In this document: in pieces, positions 32,168-63,723 of the stretch
Numbering within the stretch: position 1 is the stretch's first letter
Layout: every line of letters begins with the position of its first letter
Assembly: GCF_963675165.1 (NCBI RefSeq)
Contig: NC_087382.1
Coordinates: forward strand, 3,573,963 to 3,637,962
Direction: 5' to 3'
DNA length: 64,000 nucleotides
Source of the DNA: Halichondria panicea
Taxonomy: Eukaryota; Porifera; Demospongiae; Suberitida; Halichondriidae
Program-made: the position numbers and the translations under genes
Notes under the pieces: model-generated
Told to the model about the DNA's origin: nothing
What the model saw: the letters and a program-made list of their open reading frames with translations, nothing else
Databases searched by the model: none

Positions 32168-35100
32168 ATGGGACAGGAACAGTCTGCTGAGTAAGTGATG
32201 GTCTTACAGCCTAACATTTTTATTGCTTTTAAACAGGAAACAGGCCAGTAATGCTGCTTGGAGTGGTGATGTAAGCAAAGTGAAGTCCCTGCTGGCACGT
32301 GGGGCCAACCCCAACCACCCCGAGTACTATCCATTACGCAATGCTTGTTGTAATGGTCACCTGAAGACAGTGAAGGCACTTGTTGAGGCTGGAGCAGACA
32401 CTGAGAGATGGGATAATTGGGGCAGGTCTCCAGTTCATTGTGCAGCCAGGAATGGTTATAAGAAGGTGTTGGTTTACTTGATCAGGGATTGCAAGTGCAG
32501 CGCTGGTGAGTAGTTTTCCATTCACTAGCAGTTGCTACATAACTCCCCCGGCCAACCCTATATATAGCAATTTTTCACATTGCAAATATTTTTATGGGAC
32601 TTTAATATCAGTTTAATTTGTAACAAATACGGAATACATGCATGGCTTGGGCTTCTTAATTTTGAATGAGTTGGTTATGTACACGAACTATGCGTTCGAG
32701 GCCTTGAGGGCCTGGCTTAGGGATGGACATTTAGTTCCTTACAAATGCACCAGTCCTGTAATATTTAAATATTAGTGATACCAACATTCACTTGTGTATA
32801 GATGCCAGGGACCAGCACAACAATACTCCACTCCACGATGCATGCTATCGTGGTCGCCTATATGTGGTGCAGTACTTGGTGGAGGAGGCCCACTGTGACA
32901 TCAGTGAGTGTATCATAATTTTGTCTGTCCCTGTGTACACATTTGTTGTTATGAACACTTTCAGATGTACGTAACAACAACAACCAGACTGTACTTCATG
33001 CAGCCTGCAGTCGCGTCCTTTTACGTATAATTGGTGAGTCGAAGTAATTAGAGATTATAGTAACTACATAGCCCTAAAAGTACTTGTTTGTAACAAACCA
33101 GAAATAAGAGTATATGCATGTAATAGATATAGCATGGGAGACCGAGTGTTTTATGGAATATACAGGTACAAGCATAAGGGTGAAGCTCCGAGGGCGAGTT
33201 GCTTGCATATTTCAATAAAACACGAGGATTCTCATGCTATAATATTATGCAGGACGACCCCTTACCAAAACGTGTAATAAGAACACGGAAGGAACTGTAT
33301 GACTTTTATTACATCCTTGTAACCTATATAAAATTATAAGATCCTTACAATACAGTGCATGTATTATTATAACCAACTGCATTCCCGTTCAATATTGTAA
33401 CTTTAGATGAGACATGGGCGCGTTCCGATCCGGTTGCAGTGGTGAAGTACTTGGTTGAGAAGGCTAACTGTGACATCAGTGAGTTTATTTAAATGTAATG
33501 TGTATACAATCTTTTGACCATTAACATGCACATGCAGATGCAACTGATAAGCGAGGCAGGACACCCCTTGACATAGCTAAAGAGAGACGTGGTTACGAGC
33601 CTATTGTTGACTACCTCAAGACTCGACAAGAATCATCTAGACAACCAGGCAAGTTATGAAAAAACATTTCACCGGCATCCTAAATAATTGGCATAGCTAT
33701 ACATTATAAAGAGATTAGTGATGTGCATAATGTTATGTTTACACGACTCAACAACTGTTACTCATGGCAACCAGGCACGACGTTATGAACATATTTAACT
33801 GAAATTGTTATCACGAGGAATTCCTAGTAAATTGTTATCTGAGTACATTTTCCTCAATGAAGTAAAAAATGTCATGCCAGCAAAGGCTTCGCCATGCATA
33901 CAGTAATTATAACTATACTTTACCATAGCTATATATAATTTATAGTCAGTCACATTTACTTCCTTGTACATTCATGCAGGAAAAGATGGTGTTGGGAGTC
34001 AAACAGCTGTTCCACTCACACAAGACGAGGCTGATGCTCTGCAGAAGCTTTTCGAGGGAGCACAAGTCACCATTGGTCATCCCATTGTTGCTGGCACAAC
34101 CACTCTGGAGGATGTTCAGCAGCTGCTTACTCAGAGAGGACTGGAGATTATGGCCGACGACCTCAGGACAAAACTCAGACTAAGTAAGCTTAAAATTACT
34201 ACTTTTAGTGCTTATCAAATGATCTCCAGTCAATCAGTTTAGCTTAAAGTAGTCACACGACCGTGATTTGTAATCTCCACACTTAACTGCTTACTTGCCG
34301 AATGGTTCTCGCTAAAATTTCAATGTTTGTTATTTTTCATATGATCAAAGTAACTTAATCTCTACTAATTTCTCCATAATTATAGTTATGACTGAGCAAC
34401 AAAGAAACCTCGAGATACTCAACAATCTAATGACAGATGAAGACACTATCGATGTTTGCTACCCAAGGCTATTTCTTGTTGGGCCGCCATCTGTTGGCAA
34501 GACGACCACACTCAATCGACTGCTGGGGGAGTTTGAGAACATTGACTCTGCTAGAGACAAAGCCAAGCTTAGAAGCACACTGCTTGCTAACTGCAAACAA
34601 ATACTTGCTTTCGTTAATGAAGACACAACAAAATGGTTGTCATCCAAAGATGTTGACGAAGAAACAAAGCTATTGTTTGGTTACTTGCGTGAATCTAAGT
34701 CTGAAACCACTCCTAACAAAGAGAGAAGCATCGCAACCTCAACCGATTCTCCTGTATTAATACGCATGCTAAGAACTCTGTTTAAATACACCACACAATT
34801 ATTTTCTGAAGAAAGCAGACCACCACTACACCAAGCCACAGCTGCTCAGCGTACGATGACAATGAGTCAACCAAGAAGCAAACTATTACCAATAAAATCA
34901 GAATTACAACAGCTAATAAAGAATGCGGATTATTCCAAAATGGCTGATTTCCTTGGCGATATTTTACTGAATATTCACGACATCGGAGGTCAGCCAGGCT
35001 TCTTAGAAATGCTACCAGCCCTGAGCACTGGTCCGGCCATGTACCTAGTGTTCTTAGATCTCAGTAAGGAACTTGATAAGCTGTACAAAATACCTTTCAG

Positions 35101-37922
35101 TCGAGATGGTATGGAAATTATTCCCTTCAATTCTGTTCACACTACAGAAGCCACAATCTCTCAAATCCTCACCTCTATTGCCAGTGTCCATTGCATCTCA
35201 AGAGATCCCACTCCTCTTATTGATGTTGGCAGAGCTAGTGATGCTCTTAAAGAAAGAATTAAAACATTTAAACAAGTTAAACCGGTAGCAGCCTTGATAG
35301 GCACACACAAAGACAAGCTGACCGACCCCGAGAGACAAATCAGCGAGAAAAATGAGGCACTTACAAAAGTTCTCCAAAAATTCCCTGAAATTATTATTTC
35401 TCCTGGATCAGAACAGCAGAATATTGAGCACAGCGAACCTATAGACGGAGCCCGTACACAATTAGATTTAAAATCTTGTTTCTTCTCAGTAGATAACCTC
35501 AATGGAACTGAAGTGTCTGACATCGGCCCCGTTCGTAATTTCTTAAGTCGAATAATTTTGTCTCGCTTCAAAAATGCTTCTCTTCCAATTCGACCGAAAT
35601 GGCTCATTTTTGGGTTGCTTCTTCGAAAACAATTTCAAATAGCTACAATTGAAGATTGCTTTGAATTAGGAGAAATGCTAGAAATGCAGAAAGAAGAAGT
35701 AGAAGTGTGTCTCTGGTATCTTCACAACTGTGTTGGTACGATCCTCCGTTACACCAATGTACCTGGTGATGACGGTTGGCTCAAAGGTCATGTGATCTGC
35801 ACCCTTCAAGCTATCTTTGATAGCATCAGCCAGTTTATTCTCCTTTCTATGCGAACGCTTCACTCAGGAGGTCCAGTTACCGACTACGAGCAAGCCGAGT
35901 TGGTTAAGAAGGGACAGTTCTCGATCAAATCCATTGAGATGTGTTGCAGAAACGTGGAAATTTCTGAACTTATTCCCGCAAAGCATCTCATTAAGTTATT
36001 GGAGCATGTCAAACTTCTGTCCCCGATATCTCATAAGGATAAATCATCAGCGGAAGTTGTTCGCACTACCTACTTAATGCCGGCTGTTTTGGAATGTGCT
36101 TCACAAGAGGAGCTGGCGAACCCACCTCCACCAGACACCAACAACCCAGAACCACTCCACATCAGATTCAGCTTTGGTTACGTACCAACAGGAGTCTTCT
36201 GTGGGCTCATCACTCGACTAGTTTCCCAAGGCCGCCATGGAATACTCGGATTGACGTGGAAGTTGGTGGAAGATGGTGTCAAGAGAAACTGCGTCTCTTT
36301 TCTGATTGCGAAATCAAATAAGATAACGTTAATATCTCATGAAAGGAGTTACGAAATACGAGTTACTCGAAATCACGCCCGTCTCTCCCTGTACGACCTT
36401 TGCACCTATGTTCTCTCGGTAGTTCTCTACACTCTCACGAGCATGTACGAGCAGCTAGTCCCACAAGTTGCGTTCCAGTGCCCATGTCCTGGTCACAGCT
36501 CAAGCAGGGATAGAAATTCCTTGTGTATTCTGACGAAAGATGTATGGATTCAGTTTCTGTGTGGCAGTAATCCCGTTACCTTGAGGAAGGAGCAGACAGT
36601 TTGGCTTGGAAAGGTGTGTGTGTACAGTTATATTAGTGTACGTAGAATTATGTTCATGTGTTCTACTTGCCTGTCTTACTATTTGCCGCGTGTTAGTCAC
36701 ATGCATCCCTTGTTTTCAACAGACCAAGAAGGTTGGTGAGGAAGCTGAACTAGAGGTGCTAAAGTTTGCTGAGGAAGGTTTCTCCTTCCACTGGACCAAA
36801 GAGGGCTCCAGACGTCAGATCAAGACAACTGATGATCAGCCCAACACTCTGAGCTTCCCGAGTGTGAGAGAGGAGGACTTTGGTCACTACCAGTGTGAGG
36901 TGAAGGATGCAGCTGCTGAGAAAGTGCTCCTCACTCTCTACAGAGCTCTCTACAAAGAGGAGTCAAGTCAGTTAGCATATATTGAGAGTATAATTATATA
37001 TGTGTGCCAATTGTCACGATACGCCACACTTACGTTCAATATTTTAACTGCTTCAGGTGAATTCTCTTCTGAAAGGATTGAAGAGCCAAAAAGCAATGAC
37101 ACTAAATCTATTGTAAAGACACCATCATCAGGTTTGATTGTTTCTACGAACTATTCTACAAACACTGTCATTCACTGATCACTCGTATAGATGAGGGGTT
37201 CCTGTCACCAGAAAGGCTCCAACCCTCAGCAGCTCCAGTCCAGAGAGCAGAAACTCCATCAGCTGGTGGTGACAGTCAATTCCGTACTCAAAAAGGTATA
37301 TTTCTTTATATACATGTAGCTGTGTATGATATTGTCACATCATCAATCAATGATTTATGCCCTCTACAGGACCACCCGCTAATCGAGTCGCTCTCCAAGA
37401 ACTAATGGGACGATACAATCTGACTAACGAGCAACTCAACCATGAAATAAGTAACCCTAATTTTTCCTACCTAGCCATATATTTCGATGATGTGGAAATT
37501 TATTCGAATGCCATGGGACTAGCTTCTGCTGAACAAGCCGATGTGAAGAGGTTATACCATAGCGAAGGTTCCCAAGCAGCCATGTTAAAGTGTTTGAAAA
37601 TCTGGAAACAACACAATTCTTCTCAAGCAAGTTACAGAGCTCTACTGGATATCATACTGAGATTGGGGAAAGGAGACACAGCTGATAAAATCTGTCAGCA
37701 ATTGACCCAACGTAAGTACATGTATATCAGTGCCCCTCCCCTTTTCCTCGCCCCTCTAACAAGCAACTGAGCCGGTAGCTATGCAACTCATGCATGTAAC
37801 TGAACTCACACCAGAGAAGTATTTCATAATGAGTACATAGCTAGTAGGTTGTACATAATTATAGGATTGACAGTGCAATTGTGTGTTTTCAATCATATTT
37901 CACCGCGTTTCGTCTGACTGAC

Positions 37923-37965
<43 letters not shown>

Positions 37966-39063
37966 CATTCTTGGAAAGCATTTCCTCCTTGTACAGACAT
38001 GTTCAGAAGATTCTAGATACAGCCTCTAGTCGACTAGAACCCGGACCATGGGCGTTTTTCTCAGAATTGCATCCGCTTCCAAGAGGCAGATGACCTCTCA
38101 GGCTCCACTTTTCTTACCTACGCAATTCCGCCATCTTTAAATGACTGCCACAGCAACGCACATGGCAACTTATGAGGTGGGCGTGGCTGTGACATCGATA
38201 AACACAAAACCTCCTTTCTTCAGCTCAGCTCTCCATTCACTCACTTCATGTATGCTATTTATCCTAGATGCATGCACTAAAAAACATTTGCAATGTGAAC
38301 GTTGCTAGGATTGCCAGGAAAAGAAAAGCACGAAAAAGCGAAGAAACAAGAAATTCGGCGAGTGCATAACTCCAATCCGTTACAACGTCATGAACATGTA
38401 CAGTCGAGTGGCCTACTGTTGATAAGGAATTTTAAAATCGAAATATAGATTGGATAAACACACAGTCATTGGTCTTTATCTGCTGGTCATGAATATAACT
38501 TGGAATACTCCCATCCACACATCCAACACTTGCGTGTTTGCTCAACACTGTAAGGGAGTCATAAACACATAACTATAGCCTGCAAAAAATGTACATAATT
38601 AACATCACTATAATTATTACTTGCAATGTGAAAGGATTGGCCAGGAAAAGTACCAAAACAAAAATAATAATTATTAATAACTTATTGAAACAGTACATGT
38701 TCATGACGTTGTAACGGATTGGAGTTATGCACTCGCCGAATTTCTTGTTTCTTCGCTTTTTCGCGCTTTTCTTTTCCTGGCAATCCTAGCACGTTCACAT
38801 TGCAAATGTTTTTTAGTTTTGATAATTATAGGATTGACAGTGCAATTGTGTGTTTTCAATTATTGCACAAATTATCACTCTGTTCATAATTATATACATT
38901 TCCACTTGTTGGTGTCTATATAGCTAGACTGCACTCTCAGCTAGTGCACTGTTGATATGACAACCTATAGTTTATCAAAATGATCTACATAATATGTAGA
39001 TCATTTTGATAAACTATATAATTATTGTTTCTATATTATTGTACAGATCGTACACTGGACTGA
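32168..39063 (+). CDS. Gene C: ankyrin-ROC-COR-Ig-Death protein (intact)
   Basis: Thirteen exons join in frame to 1286 residues: 32168-32190, 32237-32505, 32802-32903, 32965-33033, 33407-33478, 33538-33648, 33980-34183, 34386-36613, 36723-36966, 37057-37131, 37191-37295, 37370-37711, 39047-39063. The start MGQEQSAE has Gly2 and Ser6, an N-myristoylation pattern. Residues ~9-215 are ankyrin repeats (NNTPLHDACYRG, VVQYLVEEAHCDI). ROC: P-loop GPPSVGKTT (316-324), ~160-residue insertion, switch II DIGGQPGFLEML (482), G4 THKD (590). COR spans ~664-1026, Ig 1027-1108 (FSFHWTKEG, YQCEVKD), Death ~1168-1281, and the end is HRTLD. Intron 6 uses a GC donor (GGCAAGT). The order resembles DAPK1 without the kinase and with an Ig domain added. 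A membrane-tethered GTP-switched death or immune adaptor is inference. Confidence 0.9.
33131..33240. repeat. Intronic hairpin element, gene C copy
   Basis: Same inverted repeat as at 20731 (AGCATGGGAGACCGAGTGTT and AAACACGAGGATTCTCATGC), in the intron between ankyrin exons 4 and 5 of gene C. Confidence 0.55.
37894..38821. mobile_element. 928-bp insertion in the last intron of gene C
   Basis: It is flanked by about 39-bp direct repeats (AATTATAGGATTGACAGTGC...) at 37854-37893 and 38822-38860. Other copies have this segment once (near 10018, 25018 and 47260). It contains (TAAG)n at 37923-37964 and an inverted-repeat element at 38277-38816. The long direct repeat suggests a recombination or replication event, not a classical transposition. 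Confidence 0.65.
38277..38816. mobile_element. Inverted-repeat element inside the gene C insertion
   Basis: Arms of about 125 bp: CTAAAAAACATTTGCAATGT at 38277, and the reverse complement ending AAATGTTTTTTAG at 38816. The arms include GAAACAAGAAATTCGGCGAG. There is no ORF of note. Confidence 0.75.
38966..39018. repeat. 26-bp perfect palindrome before the last exon of gene C
   Basis: TATAGTTTATCAAAATGATC is followed by its reverse complement around ACATAATATGT. Other copies have only the left arm, so this is a local inverted duplication 29 bp upstream of the final exon. Confidence 0.7.
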
Positions 39064-39317
39064 TGCAGTGATTACACATGCAGTGTGTCGGATTGTACAA
39101 AATACTCTAGAAATTGCATGTGACATGTATTTATAGCTAGTTGAAAATAGTTGAAAATAGTTGTCCATTTTTAGAAGTTTAATTATTCTTATGGCACAAA
39201 GGTGTTGGACTAGCTGTGTAGCTATAATTATTATTTGATGTGTATTAGTACATGGCGAGAGATTTAGTATAGAAATGAGGACACTCAAATAAGAATTGGA
39301 TTTAACTGGAACGCTAG

Positions 39318-40518
39318 TGTCGCCATGATTTCTGCTGGGTGTGTCTTGAAACCTGGAGTCTACACAATCACAGGACTGGGGGATACTTTACGTAAGTCGT
39401 ACATTGCCAATTTACATTCAAAAACGCTCTTCAGAAAAGCGTGGCCATATAAATAATAATGCTCTTATACAACATGATTGTCTACTATCAGAGTTATACG
39501 TGTACTGTGGTACCTATAGCCTCTTACACAGGCCTGTTGAGAAAAGGAGGCATGTGCAAGATATTTTCTACATGTATGTATATACTATCTACTCAGTTGC
39601 CCATTGATATCCCTCCTCCCCCGTCCTCCCTTTATAGCTGCAGCTGATTTTCTAAGCCCCACCACTAATATATTTACTATCTTCTTGACATGCAGTTGTC
39701 CATTGACCCCCTCTCCTTCGTAGCCGTTTAACCGGTTCAGGGCTCAGGAGAAGGCCAACACGACAGTGGAGAGGTCCAGAGAAGACATGGAGGCTGCCTA
39801 TGTTAAGAAAGCTACAGAGGACCTTCAGTCGCACACTAAGAGATTCCAGCATTATTATGACAGATACAACAATCATCTACACAGTCTGGATGTAAGTGGT
39901 GGAGCGTGAAAACCTCTACTAATTTATAAACAAATTTTATAAGCAAGTTTAGCGTTCGATTTTGCTAGTTAACTTTGACTTTCTGTAACTTGAGTTTGGA
40001 AGGTCCAAGTTCAAACGAACAGTACATCATGTACTAGTTTTTTGGATCATGAGCCATAATTATACTCCTTGTCAGATTGAAATGAAGTTGCTTCAAGAGT
40101 CGATTGGTGAAATGAGAGAACTGGAAAGACTCGGACTGGCTCTCGACAAGAAAGGTAAAATTTTATTGCGTGCATGTATTATAATAGCTGCTTAGTAAAT
40201 ATAAAACCGTAATTAATATAATTATATAGTCATTGGAAGTTTCGTACTATACATAATTATAACACTGCAGTGTACATATTTTTCTTTATAGTGGTTTGGG
40301 TCAAAGGTCAATCTGCTGACGCTGCGATTGGGGAAGAATCTCCCCTCACTCCACAAAAGAAAATCAGTGTTTTCACAACTGGAAAAGCGAAAAACTTTCT
40401 CGACGATATTTTCCGATTTCTGCTGAGAGCGAGGAGAATCCTGTCAGCCTCGTATTGCATTGGATACTTTATCCCTGATACAGATGAGGAGGCCCTGGGG
40501 GCACATGAAGTATTGCAG
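39318..40518 (+). pseudogene. ANKIB1-like fragment upstream of fusion D
   Basis: Exons at 39318-39391 (CRHDFCWVCLETWSLHNHRT), 39724-39891, 40076-40154 and 40292-40518 (GKAKNFLDDIFRFLLRARRI). As in copy B, the RING2 cysteine exon is missing and exon 2 carries the CCGTTTAACCGG 2-base insertion that shifts its frame. The first exon follows a Death-gene 3' flank with no promoter or upstream ANKIB1 exon visible. It leads into the chimeric exon at 40787. Confidence 0.7.
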
Positions 40519-40786
40519 GTGAGGGCAGGTGGCTCATCGTGACAGCAGATTATGGTGTATGGAGAAATAGTGAAGCATTTCTTTAAACAATCACAACTTA
40601 AATGTTTATCTACTTGCGTGAAGTATTCCATTTTGGTAGAATTTACTACGTGTACCATTGCATTGTCGAGTGTAGCAGCGTTGTCTAACAGCTTACTGTA
40701 ATAGCTAATTTGGTGTGTCACTTCCCAACACACACTCACACACACACCCACCCACCCCCACACAAACCCACACACACACCCCTCAA

Positions 40787-43700
40787 GGCAAACTAGAGGA
40801 AGCAGTGGAGGTAGTCTCGGATATGGTCAATAGACAATACCTACAAACACCACGCTCTAAAATGAACGAAGCCGCTGAAAACGTCGACTATCTTTGCAGC
40901 AAATATCTCACCGAAATGTCCGTGGTTGCGACAATCGCCGATCTGGCAGTAAAAGAAGCGGAAAAGCCTCCACCTCTGCATGCCGCCCTGCCCACTCCAT
41001 GGGAGGACAGCCCGCCCCCTCGTATGGGGGTGATTCCCCTCGGCTTCGGACCAGACGTTCCTGACCAACCGGACAAAGAAACAAAGCTCTTGTTTGGCTA
41101 CTTACGTGAATCTAAGTCTGAAACCACTCCTAACAAAAAGATAAGCATCGCAACCTCAACCAATTCTCCTGTATTAATACGCAAGCAAAGAACTCGATCT
41201 AAAAATACCACAAAAGTGTTTCCTAAAGAAAGCAGATCACCACTACACCAAGCCACAGCTGCTCAGCGTACGACAATGAGTCATCCAAGAAGCAAGCTAT
41301 TATCAATAAAATCAGAATTACAACAGCTAATAAAAAATGCGGATTATTCCAAAATGGCCGATTTCCTTGGCGATATTTTACTGAACATTCATGACATCGG
41401 AGGTCAGCCAGGCTTCTTGGAAATGCTACCAGCCCTGAGCACTGATCCGGCCATGTATCTAGTGTTCTTAGATCTCAGTAAGGAACTTGACAAGCTGTAC
41501 AAAATACCTTTCAGTCGAGATGGCATGGAAATTAATCCCTTCAATTCTGTTCACACTACAGAAGCCACAATCTCTCAAATCCTCACCTCTATTGCCAGTG
41601 TCCATTGCATCTCAAGAGATCCCACTCCTCTTATTAATGTTGGCAGAGCTAGTGATGCTCTTAAAGAAAGAATAACAACTTTTAAACAAGTTAAACCGGT
41701 AGCAGCCTTGATAGGCACACACAAAGACAAGCTGACTGACCCCGAGAGACAAATCAGCGAGAAAAATGAGGCACTTAAAAAAAGTTATCAAAAGTTCCCT
41801 GAAATTATTATTTCTCCAGGATCAGAAGAGCAGAATATTAAGCACAGCGAACCTCTAGACGGATCCCGTACACAATCAGATTCAAAATCTTGTTTCTTCT
41901 CAGTTGATAACCTCAATGGAACTGAAGTGTCTGACATCGGACCCGTTCGTAATTTCTTAAGTCGAATAATTTTGTCTCGTTTCAAAAATGCTTCTCTTCC
42001 AATTCGACCGAAATGGCTTATTTTTGGATTGCTTCTTCGAAAACAATTTCAAATAGCTACAATTGAAGATTGCTTTGAATTAGGAGAAATGCTAGAAATG
42101 CAGAAAGAAGAAGTAAAAGTGTGTCTCTGGTATCTTCACAACTGTGTTGGTACGATCCTCCATTACACCAACGTACCTGGTGATGACGGTTGGCTCAAAG
42201 GTCATGTGATATGCACCCTTCAAGCTATCTTTGATAGCATCAGCCAGTTTATTCTCCTTTCTATGCGAATGCTTCACTCAGGAGGTCCAGTTACCGACTA
42301 CGAGCAAGCCGAGTTGGTTAAGAAAGGACAGTTTTCGATCAAATCCATTGAAATGTGTTGCAGAAACGTGGAAATGTCTGAACTTATTCCCGCAAAGAAT
42401 CTCATTAAGTTATTGGAGCACGTCAAACTTCTGTCCCCGATATCTCATAAGGATGAATCATCAGCGGAAGGTGTTCGCATTACCTACTTAATGCCGGCTG
42501 TTTTGGAATGTGCTTCACAAGAGGAGCTGGCGAACCCACCTCCACCAGACACCAACAACCCAGAACCACTCCACATCACATTTAGCTTTGGTTACGTACC
42601 AACAGGAGTCTTCTGTGGGCTCATCACTCGACTAGTTTCCCAAGGCCCCCATAAAATCCTCGGATTTAAGTGGAAGTTGGTGGAAGACAGTGTCAAGAGA
42701 AACTGCGTCCCTTTCTATGTAGATGGTGTTCACAAGGTGACTCTGCTCTCGCACGAAAAAAGCTACGAAATTCGAGTTTCCCGTGAGGATCCAGAATCTT
42801 CTCTGCACGACCTTTGCGCTCATGCACTCTCTGTCGTTTTGTATTTCCTCAAAACTTTGTATGAGAATTTGATTCCATTAATCGCATTCCAGTGTCCCTG
42901 TTCCAATCACAAAACCAAACGAGACGTCATTAATTTATGTACTATTTCCGATGGTTCAAAAGTTCGATTTCTTTGTAACGATTCTATGAAGCTCGTTAAA
43001 TTAAAACCGGAACAACGGATCTGGCTTGGAAAGGTAAGTATTTTTGTAACCATTAATTGTATTAATGATGCCAATTAATTCGCTACAGACCAAGAAGGTT
43101 GGTGAGGAAGCTGAACTAGAGGTGCTAAAGTTTGCTGAGGATGGTTTTTTCTTCCACTGGACCAAAGAGGGCTACAGACGTCAGATCAAGACAACTGATG
43201 ATCGGCCCAACACTCTGAGTTTCCTGGGTGTGAGAGAGGAGGACTTTGGTCACTACCAGTGTGAGGTGAAGGATGCAGCTGCTGGGAAAGTGCTCCTCAC
43301 TCTCTACACAGCTCTGTACAAAGAAGACACAAGTCAGTTAGCATTGAGATGTATGCCACATTTATACGTTCAAATCTTTTTTTATGCTTTTAGAAGAATT
43401 TTCTACTAAAAGGAATGAAGAGCCAAAAAACAATAGCACTAAATCTATTGTAAAGACACCATCATCAGGTTTGATTGTTTCTTCTACAAACACTGTTGTT
43501 CACTAATCACTCCTATAGATGAGGGGTCCCTGTCATCAGAAAGGCTCCAATACTCAGCAGATCCAGTCCAGAGAGTAGGAACTACATCAGCTGGTGAAGA
43601 CAGTCAAGTCCGTACTAGAAGAGGTAAATTCACTGCTGAATAACTATTATTATGATATTTTGTATTTTCATCAATGTTAATTCATTTCCTCTCTAATTAT

Positions 43701-44274
43701 AGGATCACCCGCTAATCGAGTCACTCTCCAAGGACTAATAAATCATTACAATCTGATTGACGAGCAACTCAACAGTGAAATCAAGAAAGCTGATACTCCC
43801 TTTATAGCCGAATATTTCGATAATGCGGAACTTTATTCGAGTGCAATGGGACTAACTACTGCTGAAGAAGCTGACGTGAAAGAATCACGTGGAAATCAAG
43901 TAGCCATGATGAAATGCCTGCAAATCTGGAAAGAACGTTATCCTTCACAAGCAACTTACAGAGCTCTACTGGATATCGTACTGAGATTAGGGAAAGGAGA
44001 AACAGCTGATAAAATATGTCGGCAATTGACCCAACGTAAGTACATGTGTATCAGTGCCCCTCCCCCTTTTCCTCTCCCCTCTAGAAAGCAACTGAGTAGC
44101 TATCTTGCTCATGTCGAGTTGTATAGAGCATATTTATATCCACTTTGTTGGTGTCTTATATAATTTTAGCTAGACTGCACAGCCGCTCTCAGTGCACTGT
44201 GATAATGACAACCTATAGTTTATCAAAATGATCTGTTCTATAATTATTATTGTACAGATCGTACACTGGACTGA
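40787..44274 (+). CDS. Fusion D: ANKIB1-like Ariadne tail + ROC (no P-loop)-COR-Ig-Death
   Basis: One uninterrupted 749-codon exon frame (40787-43033), then Ig 43089-43332, linker 43394-43468, 43519-43623, Death 43703-44035 and terminal 44258-44274: about 1007 codons. The first ~95 residues are Ariadne-domain tail (GKLEEAVEVVSDMVNRQYLQ, then a Pro-rich linker). At about 41072 the frame enters ROC at KETKLLFGYLRES, so the P-loop is gone. Switch II (DIGGQPGFLEMLP) and G4 (GTHKDKLT) remain. COR, Ig and Death look intact. The 3' splice site reads CTCAAG|GC where intact copies have CTCAG|GGC. Using AAG would drop one base and give GCA AAC TAG, a stop, so normal splicing from the upstream exons should not reach this frame. 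Internal initiation, for example at the Met before VNRQYL, is possible. Calling it a gene and not a pseudogene rests on the open frame alone. Confidence 0.7.
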
Positions 44275-46525: not shown

Positions 46526-46531
46526 AAAAAC

Positions 46532-47470
46532 CGAATTCATTGTGAAGACGCCATCATTAGGTTTGGTAATTTCCAAACTGTAACTAACTGAACATGCACT
46601 CCTATATTAGATGAGGGGTCCCTATCATCACAAAGGCTCCAATACTCAGCAGCTCCAGTCCAGAGAGTAGGAACTACATCAGCTGGAGATAATCAAGTCC
46701 GTACTAGAATATTAGGTATATTTCCTGAAGTAGCTAGTTATGTATCTATGTATGGTTATTTAATGTTTGTCCCTCTACAGGATCACCTGGTAATCAAATC
46801 GCTCTCCAAGAACTAATGAGGCGATACAATCTGACTGACGAGCAACTCAACCGTGAAATAGTGGACTCCGATACTCCCGTAATGGCCTTAAATTTTGACG
46901 ATGTGGAAATGTATTCAACTGCAATGGGGCTAGCTATTGCTAAACAAGCTGATGTGAAAGAATCACGTGGAAATCAAGCAGCCATGATGAAGTGCCTGCA
47001 AGTCTGGAAAGAACGTGATCCTTTTCAAGCAACTTATAGAGCTCTACTGGATATTGCACTGAGTTTGGGGAAAGGAGACACAGCTGATAAAATCTGTCAG
47101 CAATTGACCCAAAGTAAGTACATGTATATCAGTGCCCCTCCCCCTTTTCCTTGCCCCTCTAACAAGCAACTGAGCCGGTAGCTATCCGACTCATGCATGT
47201 AACTGAAATCACACCAGAGAAGTATTTCATAATGAGTACATAGCTAGTAGGTTGTACAAGTATAGGATTGACAGTGCAATTGTGTGTTTTCAATTATTGC
47301 ACAAATTATCACTCTGTTCATAATTATATACATTTCCACTTGTTGGTGTCTATATAGCTAGACTGCACTCTCAGCTAGTGCACTGTTGATATGACAACCT
47401 ATAGCTTATCAAAATGATCTACATATTGTTTCTATATTATTGTACAGATCGTACACTGGACATGAAGTGA
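46532..47470 (+). pseudogene. Second linker+Death cassette behind fusion D
   Basis: Truncated linker exon (about 46532-46559), then 46611-46715, Death 46781-47113 and terminal 47448-47470 (HRTLDMK-type end, as in gene A). The Death frame is open: LTDEQLNREIVDSD, FDDVEMYSTAMGLA, AMMKCLQVWKERDP. It corresponds to the 3' end of a gene A-like unit whose body is missing; the left breakpoint is at about 46530. It could act as an alternative 3' exon set for D if splicing skipped 44258-44274, but this is unproven. Confidence 0.65.
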
Positions 47471-48898: not shown

Positions 48899-49124
48899 CC
48901 GTATAGCGCGAAATTTTCGAGGGGCTTAATTTTCGTGGATTTCGTGGGTTAGCAATCCTACACGAAAATTAAGTCCACGAAAATCGTTCTTTACCTGCTA
49001 TAACGTGCAAGATCTAAAGGCGTGGCTTCCGGTAAGCAGTCATTCCGCGAACATTGTGCAACGAAATGGCTTTTAGAGGCCAATCCACGAAATATAAGTG
49101 CCTCGAAAATTTCGCGCTATACGG
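48899..49124. mobile_element. MITE insertion with empty-site proof (TATAGCG family)
   Basis: CCGTATAGCGCGAAATTTTC at the left and GAAAATTTCGCGCTATACGG at the right form a perfect inverted repeat. The other array copies read GAGATGTATTTGTTT without interruption (27253 and 62330). Here the element splits that site at TA, giving a TA duplication. Confidence 0.9.
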
Positions 49125-49200
49125 TATTTGTTTATATATCTACCTATATAGCTACTGAGTACTGTGCTATTTTACCTCATACCAACACCCACATAACCAG

Positions 49201-50657: not shown

Positions 50658-50794
50658 GTGAGTGCTCCTGCATTACTCTAGCAATAGAGTGTATCTGTGT
50701 TATCGTGTCCACGATCCTGCTACTAATACCCAACACATGCACACTGTCTTAGTTATCCACCATCCCCACCACCCACACACACCATACACACTAG

Positions 50795-52915
50795 ATGACG
50801 AGGCAAAGAAGGTAGCCTCACAGGCACAAGCAGACGCTCGATGGATCATAAGAAACACAAAGCCTTGTCCACACTGCAGGTACGTTGGAATAGAGTACAG
50901 AACAATAATATTTAGAGTTACTGTACATAATTATACGTTTCATTGTTGTCTGATTTCAATATTTCCTTATAGAGCTCCAATTCAGAAGAACGACGAATGC
51001 AATCACATGACTTGTAAACAGGTACGGGCTTAACATAATTATTAGACTGGGAACGGCTGCATCTAGTTCATTTCTTGTTGCCTCTAGTGTCACCATGATT
51101 TCTGCTGGGTGTGTCTTGATCCATGGAGTCTACATAACCACAGAACTAGGGATACTTTACGTAAGTCGTACATTGCCAATTTACATTCAAAAACGCTCTT
51201 ACAACTGATTGTCATCTATAGCTAGCTATGTGTACTAGCTTTGCTGTTCTCATAACTTTTCAGTTCATATTTCACACAAATGTCACAAATGATATGGGCA
51301 ACAGATATCAATCTTGTCTATTGACCTAGCTCCCTCCTTTTCCTTCGTAGTGTGAATCGGTACCGTTGCAGTTTAATTTATTCAACAAATACTTTTTTAG
51401 AGGCCATTCCATGAAATTCAGTTGTCTATTGACCTCCCTCCCCTTTGTAGCTGTAACTGGTTCACTGCTCAGGAGAAGATCAACACGACAGTGGAGAGGT
51501 CCAGAGGAGACATGGAGGCTGCCTATGTTAAGAAAGCTACAGAGGACCTTCAGTCGCACACTAAGAGATTCCAGCATTATTATGACAGATACAACAATCA
51601 TCTACACAGTCTGGATGTAAGTGGTGGAGCGTGAAAAATCTCTAGACAATTCTAGCAAGTTTAGTTTTGATTTTGCTAGCTAGTTTTAAGTGCCCATAAC
51701 TTGACTTTGGAAGGTCCAATTTCATATAGGATGCGTTCTGTAGCTCTAAGGGAGGTCTATTTATCAAAATGGGTGTGTTTAAATCATGTAGGCCAATTTT
51801 TTTTCTCCTTGTCAGATTAAAATGAAGTTGCTTCAAGAGTCGACTGGTAAGATGAGAGAACTGGAAAGACTCGGACTGGCTCTCGACAAGAAAGGTACGA
51901 TGTTTGTGCATGTATTATAATAACTGCTTAGTAATATTGAAATATGACCTTAATTTGGAAGTTCGTACTGTACATATAACACTACATACTTTTTTTATAG
52001 TGGCTCGGGTCAAAGGTCAATCTGATGCCACCATTGGGGTGAACTCTCCTCTCACTCCACAAAAGAAAATCAGTGTTTTCACAACTGGAGAAGCGAAAAA
52101 CTTTCTCGACGATATTTTCCGAATTCTGCTGAGAGCGAGGAGAATCCTGTCAGCCTCGTATTGCATTGGATACTTCATCCCTGATACAGATGAGGAGGCC
52201 CTGGGGGCACATGAAGTATTGCAGGTGAGGGCAGGTGGCTCATCGTGACAGCAGATTGTGGTGTATGGAGAAATAGTGAAGTATTTCTTTAAACGATCAC
52301 AACTTAAATGTTTATCTACTTGCGTGAAGTATTCCATTTTGGTAGAATTTACTACGTGTACCATATTGCATTGTCGAGTGTAGCAGCGTTGTCTAACAGC
52401 CTACTGTAATAGCTAATTTGGTGTGTCACTTTCCAACACACACTCACACACACACACGCACACCCACACACACACCCACTCACACTCACACACCCACTCA
52501 CACACCCCACACCCCTCAGGGCAAACTAGAGGAAGCAGTGGAGGTTGTCTCGGAGATGGTCAATAGACAATACCTCCAAACACCACGCTCTAAAATGAAC
52601 GAAGCCGCTAGAAACGTCGACTACCTTTGCAGCGAATATCTCACCGAAATGTTCGTGGTTGCGACAATCGCCGATCTGGCAGTAAAAGAAGCGGAAAAGC
52701 CTCCACCTCCGCGTGCCACCCCGCCCACTCCACAGGAGGACAGCCCGCCCCCTCGTATGGGGGTGATTCCCCTCGGCTTTGGACCAGCCGTTCCCGACCA
52801 ACCGGATGGAGAGAGGCGCTTCCGTTTGATTGGTCTATTGAATCCCGATGGAACATTGCATATTTTACGAGTACCGGAAGAGGAGTTTCAATATCTTAGG
52901 GCCCCAGCAGACTAA
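50795..52915 (+). pseudogene. ANKIB1: ANKIB1-like RING2/Ariadne half, copy 3
   Basis: Exons at 50795-50879 (ending CPHC, then split AG), 50973-51021 (NDECNHMTCKQ; the G before the RING2 active Cys is E here), 51088-51160, 51451-51616, 51816-51894, 52001-52224 and 52520-52915 (stop TAA). Exon 3 lacks one G (AGAACTAGGGATAC against AGAACTGGGGGATAC), which shifts the frame just before the Ariadne domain. All other exons are open, and exons 5-7 join in frame (VNRQYLQTPRSKMNEAAR to LRAPAD). Ankyrin, RING1 and IBR are absent, and the APEX1 fragment ends 137 bp upstream. Confidence 0.8.
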
Positions 52916-53592
52916 TTAGCGTTATGTGAATGTACTTGTGAACTACATGTATATAATAATTATGAGTATTCTGTTCAAGAATTTAGCTGTGTGTGTGTAT
53001 GTATAAACATGTTATTTTTCATGTTGTTTGCACAGTCGTCATTAATATTTTGTTATTAATTAAAATGCACCTCTGCCCCGAAGCAGCCATTGTGATCAAA
53101 TTCTGCAGATCCACCCCCTTTCTATGGTTCGTAACACGCCGACCGTTTCATATTTTAAAGACAGAATAATCACTATTATTATGATAATAATTATGCTAGA
53201 CTAGCCAATTAGCGTTAATTGCAATGGTATCTCATACCCCCCCCCCCCATCTCAAATATATACCCGAAGCATTTGAACACTAAAAGCTAGCTGCAAACAA
53301 AGCACTGCATGTCAGTCGTCACTAGCCTGTTTTACCATAATATTATAGTTAGAGAACAGGCATTTTTAGATGTCTGATAATACCCCCTGCATGCATGTAC
53401 ATGTACCCTATGATTTATTCATGAACATGCATGCAGTCACATGTGTAATGGAATTCCCCTTACACACAATAGAGGGTGTGTCTGGCATGTCTGTGGTGAG
53501 GGTATTCATATCATTCCAAGAATACCAGCTAGTCAGTGAACCAATTCTCTGCAGTCTACACACATCTCTGAGTTCCTAGCAGAAACTATAAT
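52916..53592. promoter_or_regulatory. Upstream region of gene E
   Basis: Homologous to 31481-32167. It holds a C12 tract near 53238 and the conserved GCATGCATGTACATGTAC / ACATGCATGCAGTCAC block at 53385-53475, then the ATG at 53593. No exon is seen. Confidence 0.45.
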
Positions 53593-56500
53593 ATGGGACA
53601 GTTCCTGTCTGCTGAGTAAGTGATGGTCTTACAGCCTAACATTTTTATTGCTTTTAAACAGGAAACAGGCCGAGGAGTTACAGGTTGCTGCTAGGACTGG
53701 TGATGTCAGGAAAGTGAAGTCCCTGCTGGAACGTGGGGCCAACCCCAACCACCACAAGTACTATCCATTACACACTGCTTGTAGGAAGGGTGACCTGGAG
53801 ATAGTGAAGGCACTTGTTGAGGCTGGAGCAGACACTGAGAGATGGGATGGTTTGGGCGAGTCTCCAGTTCATTGTGCAGCCATAAGGGGTCGTAAGGAGG
53901 TGTTGGTTTACTTGATCAGGGATTGCAAGTGCAACGCTGGTGAGTAGTTTTTCATTCACTAGCGGTTGCTACATAATTCCCCCGGCCAACCCTATAATAG
54001 CAATTTTTCACATTGCAAATATTTTTGTGGGACTTTAATATCAGTTTAATTTGTAACGAATACGGAATACACGCATGGCTTGGGCTTCTTAATTTTGAAT
54101 GAGTTGGTTATGTACACGAACTATGCGTTCGAGGCCTTGAGGGCCTGGCTTAGGGATGGACATTTAGTTCCTTACAAATGCACCAGTCCTGTAATATTTA
54201 AAATATTAGTGATACCAACATTCACTTGTGTATAGATACCAGGGACAAGAACAACAATACTCCACTCCACTATGCATGCTATTGGGGTCACCTAGATGTG
54301 GTGCAGTACTTGGTGGAGGAGGCCCACTGTGACATCAGTGAGTGTATCATAATTTTGTCTGTCCCTGTGTACACATTTGTTGTTATGAACACTTTCAGAT
54401 GTACGTAACAACAACAACCAGACTGTACTTCATGCAGCCTGCCGTCCCTACCTACCTATAATTGGTGAGTCGAAGTAATTAGAGATTATAGTAACTACAT
54501 AGCCCTAAAAGTACTTGTTTGTAACAAACCAGAAATAAAAGTATATGCATGTAATAGATATAGCATGGGAGACCGAGTGTTTTATGGAATATACAGGTAC
54601 AAGCATAAGGGTGAAGCTCCGAGGGCGAGTTGCTTGCATATTTCAATAAAACACGAGGATTCTCATGTTATAATATTATGCAGGACGACCCCTTACCAAA
54701 ACGTGTAATAAGAACACGGAAGGAACTGTATGACTTTTATTACATCCTTGTAACCTATATAAAATTATAAGATCCTTACAATACAGTGCATGTATTATTA
54801 TAACCAACTGCATTCCCGTTCTATATTATTGCAATCCCAACTTTAGATTTATTTTGGTCTGAAGGAGGTTCCGATCAGCTTGCAGTGGTGAAGTACTTGG
54901 TTGAGAAGGCTAACTGTGACATCAGTGAGTTTATTTAAATGTAATGTGTATACAATCTCTTGATCATTAACATGCACATGCAGATGCAACTGATAAGCGA
55001 GGCAGGACACCCCTTGACATAGCTAAAGGGAGGAGTGATTACGAGGGCATTGTTGACTACCTCAAGACTCGACAAGAATCATCTAGACAACCAGGCAAGT
55101 TATGAAAACATTTCACCGGCATCCTAAATAATTGACATAGCTATACATTATAAAGAAATTAGTGATGTGCATAATGTTATGTTTACACGACTCAACAACT
55201 GTTACTCATGGCAACCAGGCACGACGTTATGAACGTATTTAACCGAAATTGTTATCACGAGGAATTCCTAGTAAATTGTTATCTGAGTACATTTTCCTCA
55301 ATGAAGTAAAAAATGTCATGCCAGCAAAGGCTTCGCCATGCATTCAGTAATTATAACTATACTTTACCATAGCTATATATAATTTATAGTCAGTCACATT
55401 TACTTCCTTGTACATTCATGCAGGAAAAGATGGTGTTGGGAGTCAAACAGCTGTTCCACTCACACAAGACGAGGCTGATGCTCTGCAGAAGCTTCTCGAG
55501 GGAGCACAAGTCACCATTGGTCATCCCATTGTTGCTGGCACAACAACTCTGGAGGATGTTCAGCAGCTGCTTACTCAGAGAGGACTGGAGATTATGGCCG
55601 GCAACCTCAGGACAAGACTCAGACAAAGTAAAATTTAGATATAAACACGATTTAGCACTTTTTTAACAGTCATAAAAACGCAGCCTCTAACTCTGCTTTG
55701 CCATCCCAGTGCAGTATTAAAATACGCGATTTTGGCTAACTATATAGGTGTTCTGTCACATGATCTCTATAGCCTCATGTACAGCCTGTCATTTGTACAG
55801 CGTGACCAGTTTTTTACCTGGCTACATTTGATTCCGTTCATAAAAGTAACTTAAAGCACTTTACTGAATTAAGTAGCACGCATCTCTTGACTCCTTTTTT
55901 CAATAATTCATGAACAAAGTATACCTTAATTTTTCATATGATCATAGTAACTTAATCTCTACTAATTTCTCCATAATTATAGTTATGACTGAGCAACGAA
56001 GAAACCTCGAGATACTCAACAATCTAATGACAGATGAAGACACTATAGATGTTTGCTATCCAAGGCTATTTCTTGTTGGGCCGCCATCTGTTGGCAAGAC
56101 GACCACACTCAATCGACTACTGGGGGAGTTTGAGAACATTGACTCTGCGGGACATAAAGCCAAGCTTAGAAGCACACTGCTTGCTAACTGCAAACAAATA
56201 CTTGCCTTCGTTAATGAAAACACAGCAAAATGGTTGTCATCCAAAGATGTTGACGAAGAAACAAAGCTCTTGTTTGGCTACTTGCGTGAGTCTGAAACCA
56301 CTCCTAACAAAAAGATAAGCATCGCAACCTCACCTGATTCTCCTGTATTAATACGCATGCTAAGAACTCTGTTTAAATATACTTCACAATTATTTTCTGA
56401 AGAAAGCAGATCACCACTACACCAAGCCACAGCTGCTCAGCGTACAACAATGAGTCATCAAAGAAGCAAACTATTACCGATAAAATCAGAATTACAACAG

Positions 56501-59500
56501 CTAATAAAAAATGCGGATTATTCCAAAATGGCCGATTTCCTTGGCGATATTTTACTGAACATACACGATATCGGAGGTCAGCCAGGCTTCTTGGAAATGC
56601 TACCAGCCCTGAGCACTGGTCCGGCCATGTATCTAGTGTTCTTAGATCTCAGTAAGGAACTTGACAAGCTGTACAAAATACCTTTCAGTCGAGATGGTAT
56701 GGAAATTATTCCCTTCAATTCTGTTCACACTACAGAAGCCACAATCTCTCAAATCCTCACCTCTATTGCCAGTGTCCATTGCATCTCAAGAGATCCCACT
56801 CCTCTTATTGATATTGGCAGAGCTAGTGATGCTCTTAACGATAGAATTAAAACATTTAAACAAGTTAAACCGGTAGCAGCCTTGATAGGCACACACAAAG
56901 ACAAGCTGACCGACCCCGAGAGACAAATCATCGAGAAAAATGAGGCACTTAAAAAAATTATCAAAAAATTCCCTGAAATTATTATTTCTCCAGGATCACA
57001 AGAGCAGAATATTGAGCACAGCGAACCTCTAGACGGAGCCCGTACACAATCAGATTCAAAATCTTGTTTCTTCTCAGTTGATAACCTCAATGGAACTGAA
57101 GTGTCTGACATCGGCCCCGTTCGTAATTTCTTAAGTCGAATAATTTTGTCTCGTTTCAAAAATGCTTCTCTTCCAATTCGACCGAAATGGCTTATCTTTG
57201 GGTTGCTTCTTCGAAAACAATTTCAAATAGCTACAATTGAAGATTGCTTTGAATTAGGAGAAATGCTAGAAATGCAGAAAGAAGAAGTAAAAGTGTGTCT
57301 CTGGTATCTTCACAACTGTGTTGGTACGATCCTCCATTACACCAACGTACCTGGTGATGACGTACCTGATGTTGACAGTTGGCTCAAAGGTCATGTGATC
57401 TGCACTCTTCAAGCTATCTTTGATAGCATCAGCCAGTTTATTCTCCTTTCTATGCGAACGCTTCACTCAGGAGGTCCAGTTACCGACTACGAGCAAGCCG
57501 AGTTGGTTAAGAAGGGACAGTTTTCGATCAAATCCATTGAAATGTGTTGCAGAAACGTGGAAATGTCTGAACTTATTCCCGCAAAGGATCTCATTAAGTT
57601 ATTGGAGCACGTCAAACTTCTGTCTCCGATATCTCATAAGGATGAAACATCAGCGGAAGTTGTTCGCACTACCTACTTAATGCCAGCTGTTTTGGAATGT
57701 GCTTCACAAGAGGAGCTGGCGAACCCACCTCCACCAGACACCAACAACCCAGAACCACTCCACATCACATTCAGCTTTGGTTACGTACCAACAGGAGTCT
57801 TCTGTGGGCTCATCACTCGACTAGTTTCCCAAGGCCCTCATGGAATACTCGGATTGACGTGGAAATTAGTGGAAGATGGCGTCAAGAGAAACTGCGTCTC
57901 TTTTCTGATTGCGAATTCAAATAAGATAACGTTAATATCGCATGAAAGGAGTTACGAAATACGAGTTACTCGAAATCACACCCGTCTCTCCCTGCACGAC
58001 CTTTGCACCTATGTTCTCTCGGTAGTTCTCTACACTCTCACGAGCATGTACGAGCAGCTAGTCCCACAAGTGGCGTTCCAGTGCCCATGTCCTGGTCACA
58101 GCTCAAGCAGGGATAGAAATTCCTTGTGTATTCTGACAGAAGATGTATGGATTCAGTTTCTGTGTGGCAGTAATCCCGTTACCTTGAGGAAGGAGCAGAC
58201 AGTTTGGCTTGGAAAGGTGTGTGTACAGTTAGCGTACGTAGAATTATGTTCATGTGTTCTTGCGGTGCTATTTGCAGTGGGTCAATCTTATAATTAGTCA
58301 CGATAATGTTTCCATTCATTCTACAGACCAAGAAGGTTGGTGAGGAAGCTGAACTAGAGGTGCTAAAGTTTACTGAGGATGGCTTCTCCTTCCACTGGAC
58401 CAAAGAGGGCTCCAGACGTCAGATAAAGACAACTGATGATCGGCCCAACACTCTGAGCTTCCCGAGTGTGAAAGAGGAGGACTTTGGTCACTACCAGTGT
58501 GAGGTGAAGGATGCAGCTGCTGGGAAAGTGCTCCTCACTGTCTACAGAGCTCTCTACAAAGAGAAGACAAGTCAGTTAACTGAGTATGATTAAGGATGTA
58601 CTTACTTTTAACATCACATTTACTTTAGATGAAATCTCTACTAAAAGGAATGAAGAGCCAAAAAGCTATGACACTACCAGTACATCTATTGTAAAGATGC
58701 CATCATCAGGTTTGATTGTTTCTACGAACTGTTCGACAAACACTGTTGTTCACTGATCACTCCTATATAGATGAGGGGTCCCTGTCATCAGAAAGGCTCA
58801 AACCCTCAGCAGATCCAGTCCAGAGAGTAGAAACTCCATCAGCTGGTGAAGACAGTCAAGTCCGTACTAGAAGAGGTAAATTCACTGCTAAATAACTATT
58901 ATTATGATATTATGTATTTTCATCAATGTTAATTCATTTCCTCTCTAATTATAGGATCACCCGCTAATCGAGTCACTCTCCAAGGACTAATAAATCATTA
59001 CAGTCTGATTGACGAGCAACTCAACAGTGAAATCAAGAAAGCTGATACTCCCTTTATAGCTGAATATTTCGATAATGCGGAACTTTATTCGAGTGCAATG
59101 GGACTAACTACTGCTGAAGAAGCTGACGTGAAAGAATCACGTGGAAATCAAGTAGCCATGATGAAATGCCTGCAAATCTGGAAAGAACGTTATCCTTCAC
59201 AAGCAACTTACAGAGCTCTACTGGATATCGTACTGAGATTGGGGAAAGGAGAAACAGCTGATAAAATATGTCGGCAATTGACCCAACGTAAGTACATGTG
59301 TATCAGTGCCCCTCCCCCTTTTCCTCTCCCCTCTAGAAAGCAACTGAGTAGCTATCTTGCTCATGTCGAGTTGTATAGAGCATATTTATATCCACTTTGT
59401 TGGTGTCTTATATAATTTTAGCTAGACTGCACAGCCGCTCTCAGTGCACTGTGATAATGACAACCTATAGTTTATCAAAATGATCTGTTCTATATTTATT

Positions 59501-59526
59501 ATTGTACAGATCGTACACTGGACTGA
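53593..59526 (+). CDS. Gene E: ankyrin-ROC-COR-Ig-Death protein (intact)
   Basis: Exons at 53593-53615, 53662-53939, 54236-54337, 54399-54464, 54847-54924, 54984-55094, 55424-55627, 55983-58216, 58327-58570, 58629-58709, 58771-58875, 58955-59287 and 59510-59526 join in frame to 1291 residues. It has the same layout as gene C. MGQFLSAE carries the Gly2/Ser6 myristoylation pattern. Ankyrin repeats include TPLHYACYWGHLDVVQYLVE. The ROC motifs are GPPSVGKTT (~320), DIGGQPGFLEML (~483) and THKD. COR ends WLGK, and an Ig domain follows. The Death domain is of another sequence class than in gene C (YFDNAELYSSAMGL, EEADVKESRGNQVAMM). The COR loop carries a 5-residue insertion (DVPDVDS) relative to C. 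Intron 6 again has a GC donor. Function is inferred as for gene C. Confidence 0.9.
54560..54672. repeat. Intronic hairpin element, gene E copy
   Basis: Same inverted repeat as at 20731 and 33131, in the matching ankyrin intron. Confidence 0.55.

Positions 59527-63686: not shown

Positions 63687-63723
<37 letters not shown>

Follow-up and report, generated by a model that had tools for sequence, protein, structure and literature searches.

The DNA analysed here is a 64,000-nucleotide stretch of contig C6 (the window), part of a genome searched as 131 Mb in 39 contigs, whose gene content suggests an animal. On its plus strand the window carries two long genes, here called gene 1 and gene 3, each with 13 exons that encode ankyrin repeats, a small domain in exon 7 (E7), a ROC GTPase joined to COR, an immunoglobulin-type (Ig) domain, a linker and a C-terminal Death domain. 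The models are as follows.

32168..39063, plus strand: gene 1, ankyrin-E7-ROC-COR-Ig-linker-Death, 13 exons, 1286 residues; exon model with splice signals, order matched in relatives
32168-32190, 32237-32505, 32802-32903, 32965-33033, 33407-33478 and 33538-33648, plus strand: gene 1 exons 1-6, MGQEQS start and ankyrin repeats
33980-34183, plus strand: gene 1 exon 7 (E7), small helical domain that separates the ankyrin repeats from ROC, by alignment
34386-36613, plus strand: gene 1 exon 8, ROC-COR, with GPPSVGKT, DIGGQ and GTHKD
36723-36966, plus strand: gene 1 exon 9, Ig domain (below cut-off in Pfam, Ig_3 at 1.8e-5; the profile of the family matches titin at 2e-20)
37057-37131 and 37191-37295, plus strand: gene 1 exons 10-11, fast-changing linker, by exon model and the ratio of replacement to silent substitution rates (dN/dS)
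37370-37711, plus strand: gene 1 exon 12, Death domain, by profile evidence (Pfam below cut-off)
39047-39060, stop 39061-39063, plus strand: gene 1 exon 13, final codons, by exon model
53593-59523, stop to 59526, plus strand: gene 3, same 13-exon layout, 1291 residues, by splice-aware alignment
53593..55094, plus strand: gene 3 exons 1-6, ankyrin repeats with an MGQFLS start (full protein matched by Pfam Ank_2 at 3e-33)
55424..55627, plus strand: gene 3 exon 7 (E7), by alignment and AlphaFold
55983..58216, plus strand: gene 3 exon 8, ROC-COR, structure predicted
58327..58570, plus strand: gene 3 exon 9, Ig domain, by Pfam and profile
58629..58875, plus strand: gene 3 exons 10-11, linker
58955..59287, plus strand: gene 3 exon 12, Death domain, by profile searches

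Neither reading frame contains an internal stop, and apart from a GC-AG intron 6 in each gene, the introns are GT-AG throughout. Small exons escaped ab initio gene finding with codon scores, which was replaced: the splice sites of gene 1 were read by hand, and the other models were obtained by splice-aware alignment, which is unreliable for the outermost tiny exons of distant copies. The exon 7 donor of gene 3, beyond which the aligner had run, was placed by hand. A previous sequence-only reading of this DNA had presented the two genes as independent 13-exon models of 1286 and 1291 residues with the order ankyrin, ROC, COR, Ig and Death. Frames, lengths, coordinates and domain order were all reproduced, but the independence was not: blocks 27922-34187 and 49403-55631 are 95.5% identical across 6.3 kb and blocks 34332-37771 and 55929-59348 are 90.4% identical. 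Genes 1 and 3, embedded in blocks of ~90-95% identity, are thus recent tandem copies and do not count as independent evidence. Since the window models are duplicates, independent support for the order comes from divergent relatives elsewhere in the genome, in which it is also kept.

We compared the encoded proteins with Pfam profiles and with the structures of the Protein Data Bank (PDB). In hidden Markov model searches of the full proteins against Pfam, the ankyrin repeats scored far over cut-off (Ank_2 7.7e-30 in gene 1 and 3e-33 in gene 3), and the Ig domain passed in gene 3 (ig 22.1 vs 21.8) but not in gene 1 (Ig_3 25.6 vs 30). Roc (18.5 and 19.3 vs 27) and Death (15.9 and 15.3 vs 22.6) stayed below cut-off in both proteins, and COR had no Pfam match in either. 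Single exons or open reading frames scored somewhat better than full proteins, with Ig_3 at 30.4 (cut-off 30) at 58294-58590, Death at 22.7 (cut-off 22.6) at 9500-9928, and COR-A at 25.9 (cut-off 35.3) in a divergent relative at 5.9 kb in the window. By sequence, a ROC-COR profile matched the PDB weakly (GTPase Der 0.0021, LRRK1 0.0031), and structure prediction was therefore used. When exon 8 of gene 3 (ROC-COR) was modelled by AlphaFold, the 18 PDB entries that matched at E<=0.001 were without exception Roco proteins, namely LRRK1/2 and prokaryotic Roco; DAPK1 is not listed among these fold matches, an absence that excludes nothing. The predicted structure confirms the ROC-COR identity. Consistent with Roco membership, ROC is followed directly by COR, and the nucleotide motifs G1, G3 and G4 are present. 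The P-loop (G1) and DxGGQ (G3) occur in all 28 aligned members, which were picked among 36 open frames, whereas G4 is THKD in 12 of these, a GT-x-x-D/E variant in 15 and unmatched by the pattern in one.

For the Ig and Death domains, where Pfam was weak, profile searches against the PDB confirmed both. All 18 matches of the Death profile up to E=1 are Death domains (best E 0.007), including those of CRADD, FADD, RIPK1 and ankyrin-3. The Ig profile matched 425 sequences at E<=0.01, of which the best 60 were viewed, led by titin at 2e-20; among 17 aligned Ig members, 11 matched Pfam Ig_3 and 10 matched I-set at E<=0.01. E7 has no Pfam family above cut-off and a single PDB match by sequence (E 0.4). 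The gene 3 copy was modelled by AlphaFold with a predicted local distance difference test score (pLDDT) of 83.5, and a fold search with this model gave no clear match. E7 is a conserved small helical domain, for which a Death fold is one possible reading; it also occurs in a partial copy at 24290-24499. No kinase was matched at E<=0.1 in the full 1286- and 1291-residue models, nor was one found in five open reading frames of the upstream and homologous blocks; the MGQEQS start of gene 1 lies ~0.7 kb past the end of an Ariadne-like frame. The full models likewise contain no NACHT or NB-ARC domain, the central NTPase being ROC, and no caspase-like domain. These results bear out what had been read from the letters on the ROC motifs (P-loop as GPPSVGKT, DIGGQ, and THKD within GTHKD, all intact), the Ig domain, the C-terminal Death domain and the lack of a kinase.

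To place the two genes in their genome, we searched it with single exons. All candidates were scored for the Ig, divergent-Ig and E7 exons; of the others, 60 of 325 candidates were scored for the gene 3 ROC-COR exon, 57 of 351 for a divergent ROC-COR query, 150 of 643 for the Death exon and 150 of 1117 for the ankyrin exon, so that the family size given here is a minimum. With the gene 3 ROC-COR exon at least 68 genome matches were obtained; 35 exceed 1.9 kb, of which 34 are nearly full length and one is a fusion copy in the window. An Ig exon lies 44-448 bases downstream on the same strand in 35 of 35 long matches, and within 0.7 kb upstream in none of them. Conversely, 54 of the 72 genome Ig matches have one of the ROC-COR matches at most 1.5 kb upstream. 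Listed ankyrin exons were found at most 9 kb upstream of at least 21 of the 35 long matches, and listed Death exons at most 3.5 kb downstream of at least 19; both are lower bounds because 88 of 149 ankyrin matches and 34 of 150 Death matches entered the count. Of the 28 E7 exons, 24 sit at most 3 kb upstream of a long ROC-COR match, and 24 of the 35 long matches have one. The order is tightest in the C6 array at ~3.35-3.67 Mb, where all 15 long ROC-COR copies are on the plus strand and the Death exon is at most 0.76 kb from ROC-COR in 14 (3.5 kb in the fifteenth). An ankyrin exon lies 1.8-2.1 kb upstream in 12 of these copies and at 3.5 and 5.3 kb in two more; the nearest to the fusion copy, 8.6 kb away, belongs to its neighbour. 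The two window genes are thus not an odd pair: they belong to an array and, with it, to a larger family spread over several chromosomes. On contig C1, dozens of ankyrin-exon matches, mostly 46-54% identical, lie between ~0.06 and 4.8 Mb and point to what may be a second, larger array.

We also read relatives in detail by splice-aligning gene 1 to eight of them. Complete 13-exon models were obtained in two further C6 copies, ankyrin-E7-ROC-COR-Ig in C4_3356, C1_4806 and C1_2214, and E7-ROC-COR-Ig in C11_1945 and C1_2266, where the ankyrin exons are outside or partly outside the fetched 7 kb. In C1_2116 the alignment chose a distant broken Ig, but 142 bases past the ROC-COR of this copy there is also an intact Ig match. 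Four of the six C1, C4 and C11 relatives (C1_2214, C1_2266, C4_3356 and C11_1945) are followed by a Death-like domain that is of a different type. This type is weak in Pfam (one of four members scanned at E<=0.01), and the C11_1945 domain, left out of the profile, was matched at E 7e-31. C1_2214 and C1_2266 each carry two such domains in tandem; the tandem pairs lie behind Ig at 5522-6705 and 5675-6942 in the C1 stretches L042 and L044, and single domains were seen in L036 and L038. A C8 relative with a 59% identical ROC-COR has two ankyrin repeats, E7, ROC-COR, Ig, linker and Death in order, in an alignment whose outer exons are not credible. In a more distant set with ROC-COR 25-28% identical, 16 of the 25 matches to the Ig of this set were by eye just behind a ROC-COR match. 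In a subset of this set (L018, L020, L022 and L024) ROC-COR leads straight to Death with no Ig-like open frame seen by eye in between, and thus Ig is not obligatory in the wider family.

These data bear on whether the models chain three neighbours, one gene for ankyrin-E7, another for ROC-COR-Ig and a third for Death. Some splice-site scores are weak, and the window does contain Death exons without ROC-COR and an ankyrin-E7 piece without ROC-COR. However, four C6 genes form a single open reading frame across all 13 exons, ROC-COR and Ig share an open frame in several copies (e.g. 931 residues, C6:3418002 and C6:3420285), and the order and spacing of E7, ROC and Ig are kept on other chromosomes. 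We consider chaining of separate genes very improbable.

We next considered where the proteins reside. Hydropathy gave no membrane span (the top 19-residue mean, 1.57, lies inside the ROC-COR exon) and no signal-like N-terminus. The Ig domain should therefore be cytosolic, as in titin or MALT1, and a role for it as an extracellular ligand-binding domain was rejected on the same grounds. Of the cysteine pair typical of Ig domains, the first seems in alignment to be absent from the window genes, which fits an Ig inside the cytosol. The four C6 genes with complete models (in the window, those at 32168 and 53593) share an MGQxxS start, a putative N-myristoylation signal.

To compare rates of change between the parts, we estimated dN/dS in the six pairs of the four complete C6 genes. 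ROC-COR is constrained (0.26-0.41), whereas the ankyrin exons reach 0.90-1.63 and exceed 1 in four of six pairs. The linker gave 0.92-4.91, Death 0.56-0.91 and Ig 0.27-1.41 with few changes (dN 0.021-0.043); E7 has too few changes to judge. Fisher tests on rounded counts were made for three of the six pairs, and between genes 1 and 3 the replacement excess of ankyrin over ROC-COR gave p 1.9e-6; the other two pairs gave 0.009 and 0.058.

Within the ankyrin repeats, binding positions were taken to be those randomised in the design of designed ankyrin repeat proteins (DARPins), namely 2, 3, 5, 13, 14 and 33. The repeat register was set by hand from the TPLH-AA-xxG consensus after the sequences had been viewed. 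By our own counting, positions 2, 3, 5, 13 and 14 fit the residues named in the accessible text of PMC3602593. Among five C6 copies the mean pairwise residue difference was 0.644 at binding positions vs 0.137 elsewhere, the actual register being the best of 33 shifts, with a permutation p of 5e-5, the floor of 20000 permutations. Three C1 and C4 copies repeated the pattern (0.625 vs 0.330, p 0.002, again the best register). Among codon pairs that encode the same residue, silent differences were seen in 6.9% (4 of 58) at binding positions and in 3.7% (31 of 846) elsewhere, which makes a strong mutation hotspot unlikely. Binding codons had a replacement rate of 0.371 per site in the ten pairwise comparisons of five copies. 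This exceeds the silent rate of other ankyrin codons (0.051) ~7-fold and that of ROC-COR ~2- to 20-fold (dS 0.019-0.208 in six pairs drawn from four of these copies). It is this excess of replacement at binding codons over those silent rates that argues for positive selection. As the ankyrin array diversifies at its binding positions while the Ig domain, with its low dN, changes little, the likely recognition part is the ankyrin array and not the Ig, which had earlier been described as a ligand-like insert.

Our interpretation starts from what is directly established: the domain order, the GTPase motifs, a conserved ROC-COR, a fast-changing ankyrin face and tandem copies. Target binding, GTP switching and Death output, and the choice between microbial and conspecific targets, we infer. 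We consider it rather probable that the family consists of soluble cytosolic ankyrin sensors with a Roco switch and an Ig-Death output, expanded in this genome. The ankyrin repeats would bind a target via their usual binding face, which differs between copies; the ROC-COR GTPase would be the switch that couples binding to a change in conformation or dimerisation, as in other Roco proteins; and the Ig-Death end would recruit Death-domain adaptors, leading to cell death or an NF-kB-like response. By analogy, the best reading is that the family may be a Roco-based counterpart of the NOD-like receptors (NLRs), and the innate-immune or cell-death role suggested by the sequence-only reading is plausible on the sequence features.

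Several points weigh against these sensors. The interpretation rests on DNA sequence, comparison and predicted structure. The 7 kb behind C1_4806 and C1_2116 yielded no Death exon, no C6-type ankyrin exon was among the listed matches near the C8, C10, C13 and C14 copies, and some family copies are broken or partial. One of the three Fisher tests of ankyrin vs ROC-COR reached no more than p 0.058. Silent change per site is raised at binding codons (pS 0.258 vs 0.051), for which multi-step codon paths are our candidate cause, and the ratio of per-site replacement to silent change, pN/pS, is 1.44 at binding codons, close to the 1.28 of other ankyrin codons. Since ankyrin binding positions vary generally, where in the repeats the changes fall does not by itself prove selection. 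Furthermore, gene conversion among tandem copies could distort dN/dS.

Part of this evidence would also suit a DAPK-like cell-death or stress scaffold with no target diversity, in which the ankyrin repeats are under relaxed constraint and the copies drift. In two pairs the ankyrin exons have a dN/dS close to 1 (0.90 and 0.96), any ankyrin protein accepts change at the binding positions, silent change is likewise raised there, and copy number may be drift through tandem duplication. However, relaxed constraint alone does not yield 0.371 replacement vs 0.051 silent, the repeat framework is kept, and most of the pairs have ankyrin dN/dS above 1. We consider a scaffold of this kind unlikely.

Comparison with known systems separates resemblance from membership. 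The description of these proteins as DAPK-like holds as a resemblance but not as DAPK1 membership: with no kinase in the full models, they are Roco proteins outside the DAPK1 group. The ankyrin part of DAPK1 precedes ROC-COR, as in the window genes. Like DAPK1, which represents the third Roco group, they have ROC, COR and a C-terminal Death domain in the same order and no leucine-rich repeats (LRRs); the C-terminal Death domain that characterises the group is recognised by profiles, Pfam alone being below cut-off in the full models. They differ in being without the N-terminal calmodulin-regulated kinase of DAPK1, in the Ig between COR and Death, and in forming a diversifying multigene family. 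The accessible text of PMC6337361 describes the DAPK1 group by its Death domain and by the kinase preceding RocCOR.

NLRs are defined by a NACHT or NB-ARC NTPase, which the window genes do not have, yet the anatomy and selection pattern of the family would fit an NLR-like working mode with a diversifying sensor, an NTP switch and a Death-fold output. The paracaspase MALT1 is cytosolic and combines Death and Ig in immune signalling; its Death domain is N-terminal, and it differs in having no ankyrin or ROC-COR and in carrying a caspase-like domain that is absent from the window genes. For the sensor, the closest parallel would be the ankyrin-type fungal NLRs. Those of Podospora anserina, in the accessible part of PMC4986451, likewise join a switch NTPase to ankyrin repeats in many copies, with positively selected sites that map, with one exception, to the concave ankyrin face; they differ in their NACHT/NB-ARC switch, other effectors, near-identical repeats within a gene and polymorphic repeat number. 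The same source discusses these repeats, selected on the same face, in non-self recognition. This bears on the possibility that the array serves self/non-self sensing (allorecognition, chimerism), its ankyrin faces reading polymorphic self proteins and triggering a rejection-type cell death, like fungal heterokaryon incompatibility. The array is tandem and fast-changing; however, the anatomy cannot separate self from pathogen sensing, and we regard a self/non-self role as unlikely.

Other repertoires resemble the proposed cytosolic sensors in part. Brown algal ROCO proteins, as presented in the accessible text of PMC11378527, place a ROC-COR switch behind a diversifying repeat sensor and are proposed immune receptors, but their LRRs are diversified by exon shuffling and splicing, and their LRR-ROC-COR order is without Ig or Death. 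Death/TRADD-N expansions in marine animals, including the sponge Amphimedon, are similar in forming large species-specific sets that join Death-like domains to repeats such as ankyrin; they differ in being built on TRADD-N and not on ROC-COR, and the accessible part of the source gives no ankyrin-ROC-COR-Ig-Death protein (PMC8195603). Microbial products elicit a response of genes that encode ankyrin, Ig, Death and CARD domains in two sponges, in an account whose accessible part does not name this architecture (PMC6208332). In the open-licence literature searched, we did not find this order with Ig between COR and Death. As up to forty ROCO domain combinations are reported in animals, together with Trichoplax ROCO genes that have CARD and death domains (PMC11378527, accessible text), an earlier listing of this order may have gone unnoticed, and its status as not described is weak.

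More broadly, and more tentatively, the family may represent an animal cytosolic receptor system that is parallel to NLRs and built on Roco proteins, in which an ankyrin paratope diversified in the germline is combined with a GTP switch of the ROC-COR type and an Ig-Death signalling end. Its genes would sit in tandem arrays that are continually altered as copies duplicate, exchange exons or fuse, also with an Ariadne-type ubiquitin-ligase tail. If true, an animal Roco family would work as a repertoire of recognition receptors. Roco GTPases have been studied mostly via LRRK2 and DAPK1, and the ancestral role of ROC-COR is open; a large animal family whose ROC-COR has a diversifying sensor on one side and a Death domain on the other would link Roco switches with innate recognition. 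The family would also supply natural paired sensors and switches for biochemistry, with which it could be tested whether ROC-COR dimerisation alone triggers Death-domain assembly without a kinase, and it would add ankyrin arrays, beside LRRs, to the repeats that animals may diversify for recognition.

The window contains further copies and fragments of the family.

5958..9871, plus strand: divergent relative, ~25% identical, with ROC-COR 5958-8315, Ig 8343-8603 and Death 9530-9871
10942..15447, plus strand: disrupted fusion copy, Ariadne-like exons, ROC without P-loop, COR, Ig and Death, with broken frames
19491..24499, plus strand: partial copy, ankyrin exons and E7 without own ROC-COR
39748..44034, plus strand: fusion copy, Ariadne-like exons, ROC without P-loop, COR, Ig and Death
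46780..47112, plus strand: extra Death exon, no own ROC-COR or Ig match
60219..60494, plus strand: extra Death exon (partial match), no own ROC-COR or Ig match

In the divergent relative, ROC-COR is ~25% and Ig ~20% identical, yet the Death exon is 65% identical. A C6-type ankyrin exon ~9.5 kb and an E7 exon ~7.9 kb upstream of it lie before the window start, and their joining to it is putative. An exon-like frame at 4246-4557 is conserved at 60-80% upstream of several relatives of this gene; it has no Pfam match and may correspond to E7. The fusion copy contains a 789-codon open frame in which an Ariadne-like exon continues in frame, at ~41073, into ROC past the P-loop. The stretch 11546-14734 is 97.5% identical to the fusion copy with frames broken, and a third match with the same starting ROC residue lies outside the window at C6:3549763. 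The fused exon resembles an Ariadne/ANKIB1-like C-terminal exon. An active ubiquitin ligase is unsupported for the fusion gene, no RING2 piece being found beside the 39748..44034 copy.

Two side observations concern the surroundings. Scoring of 150 of 503 candidates gave at least 148 Pfam Death matches in the genome, which amounts to a very large repertoire of Death domains. Within the window, repeated blocks at 28152-31468, 49626-52903, 17313-18748 and 63212-63838 were duplicated along with the array genes. All four contain pieces resembling an APEX1-type endonuclease, and the first three also pieces resembling the RING2-to-C-terminal part of an Ariadne-type ubiquitin ligase; Pfam support is weak, with one IBR match below cut-off.

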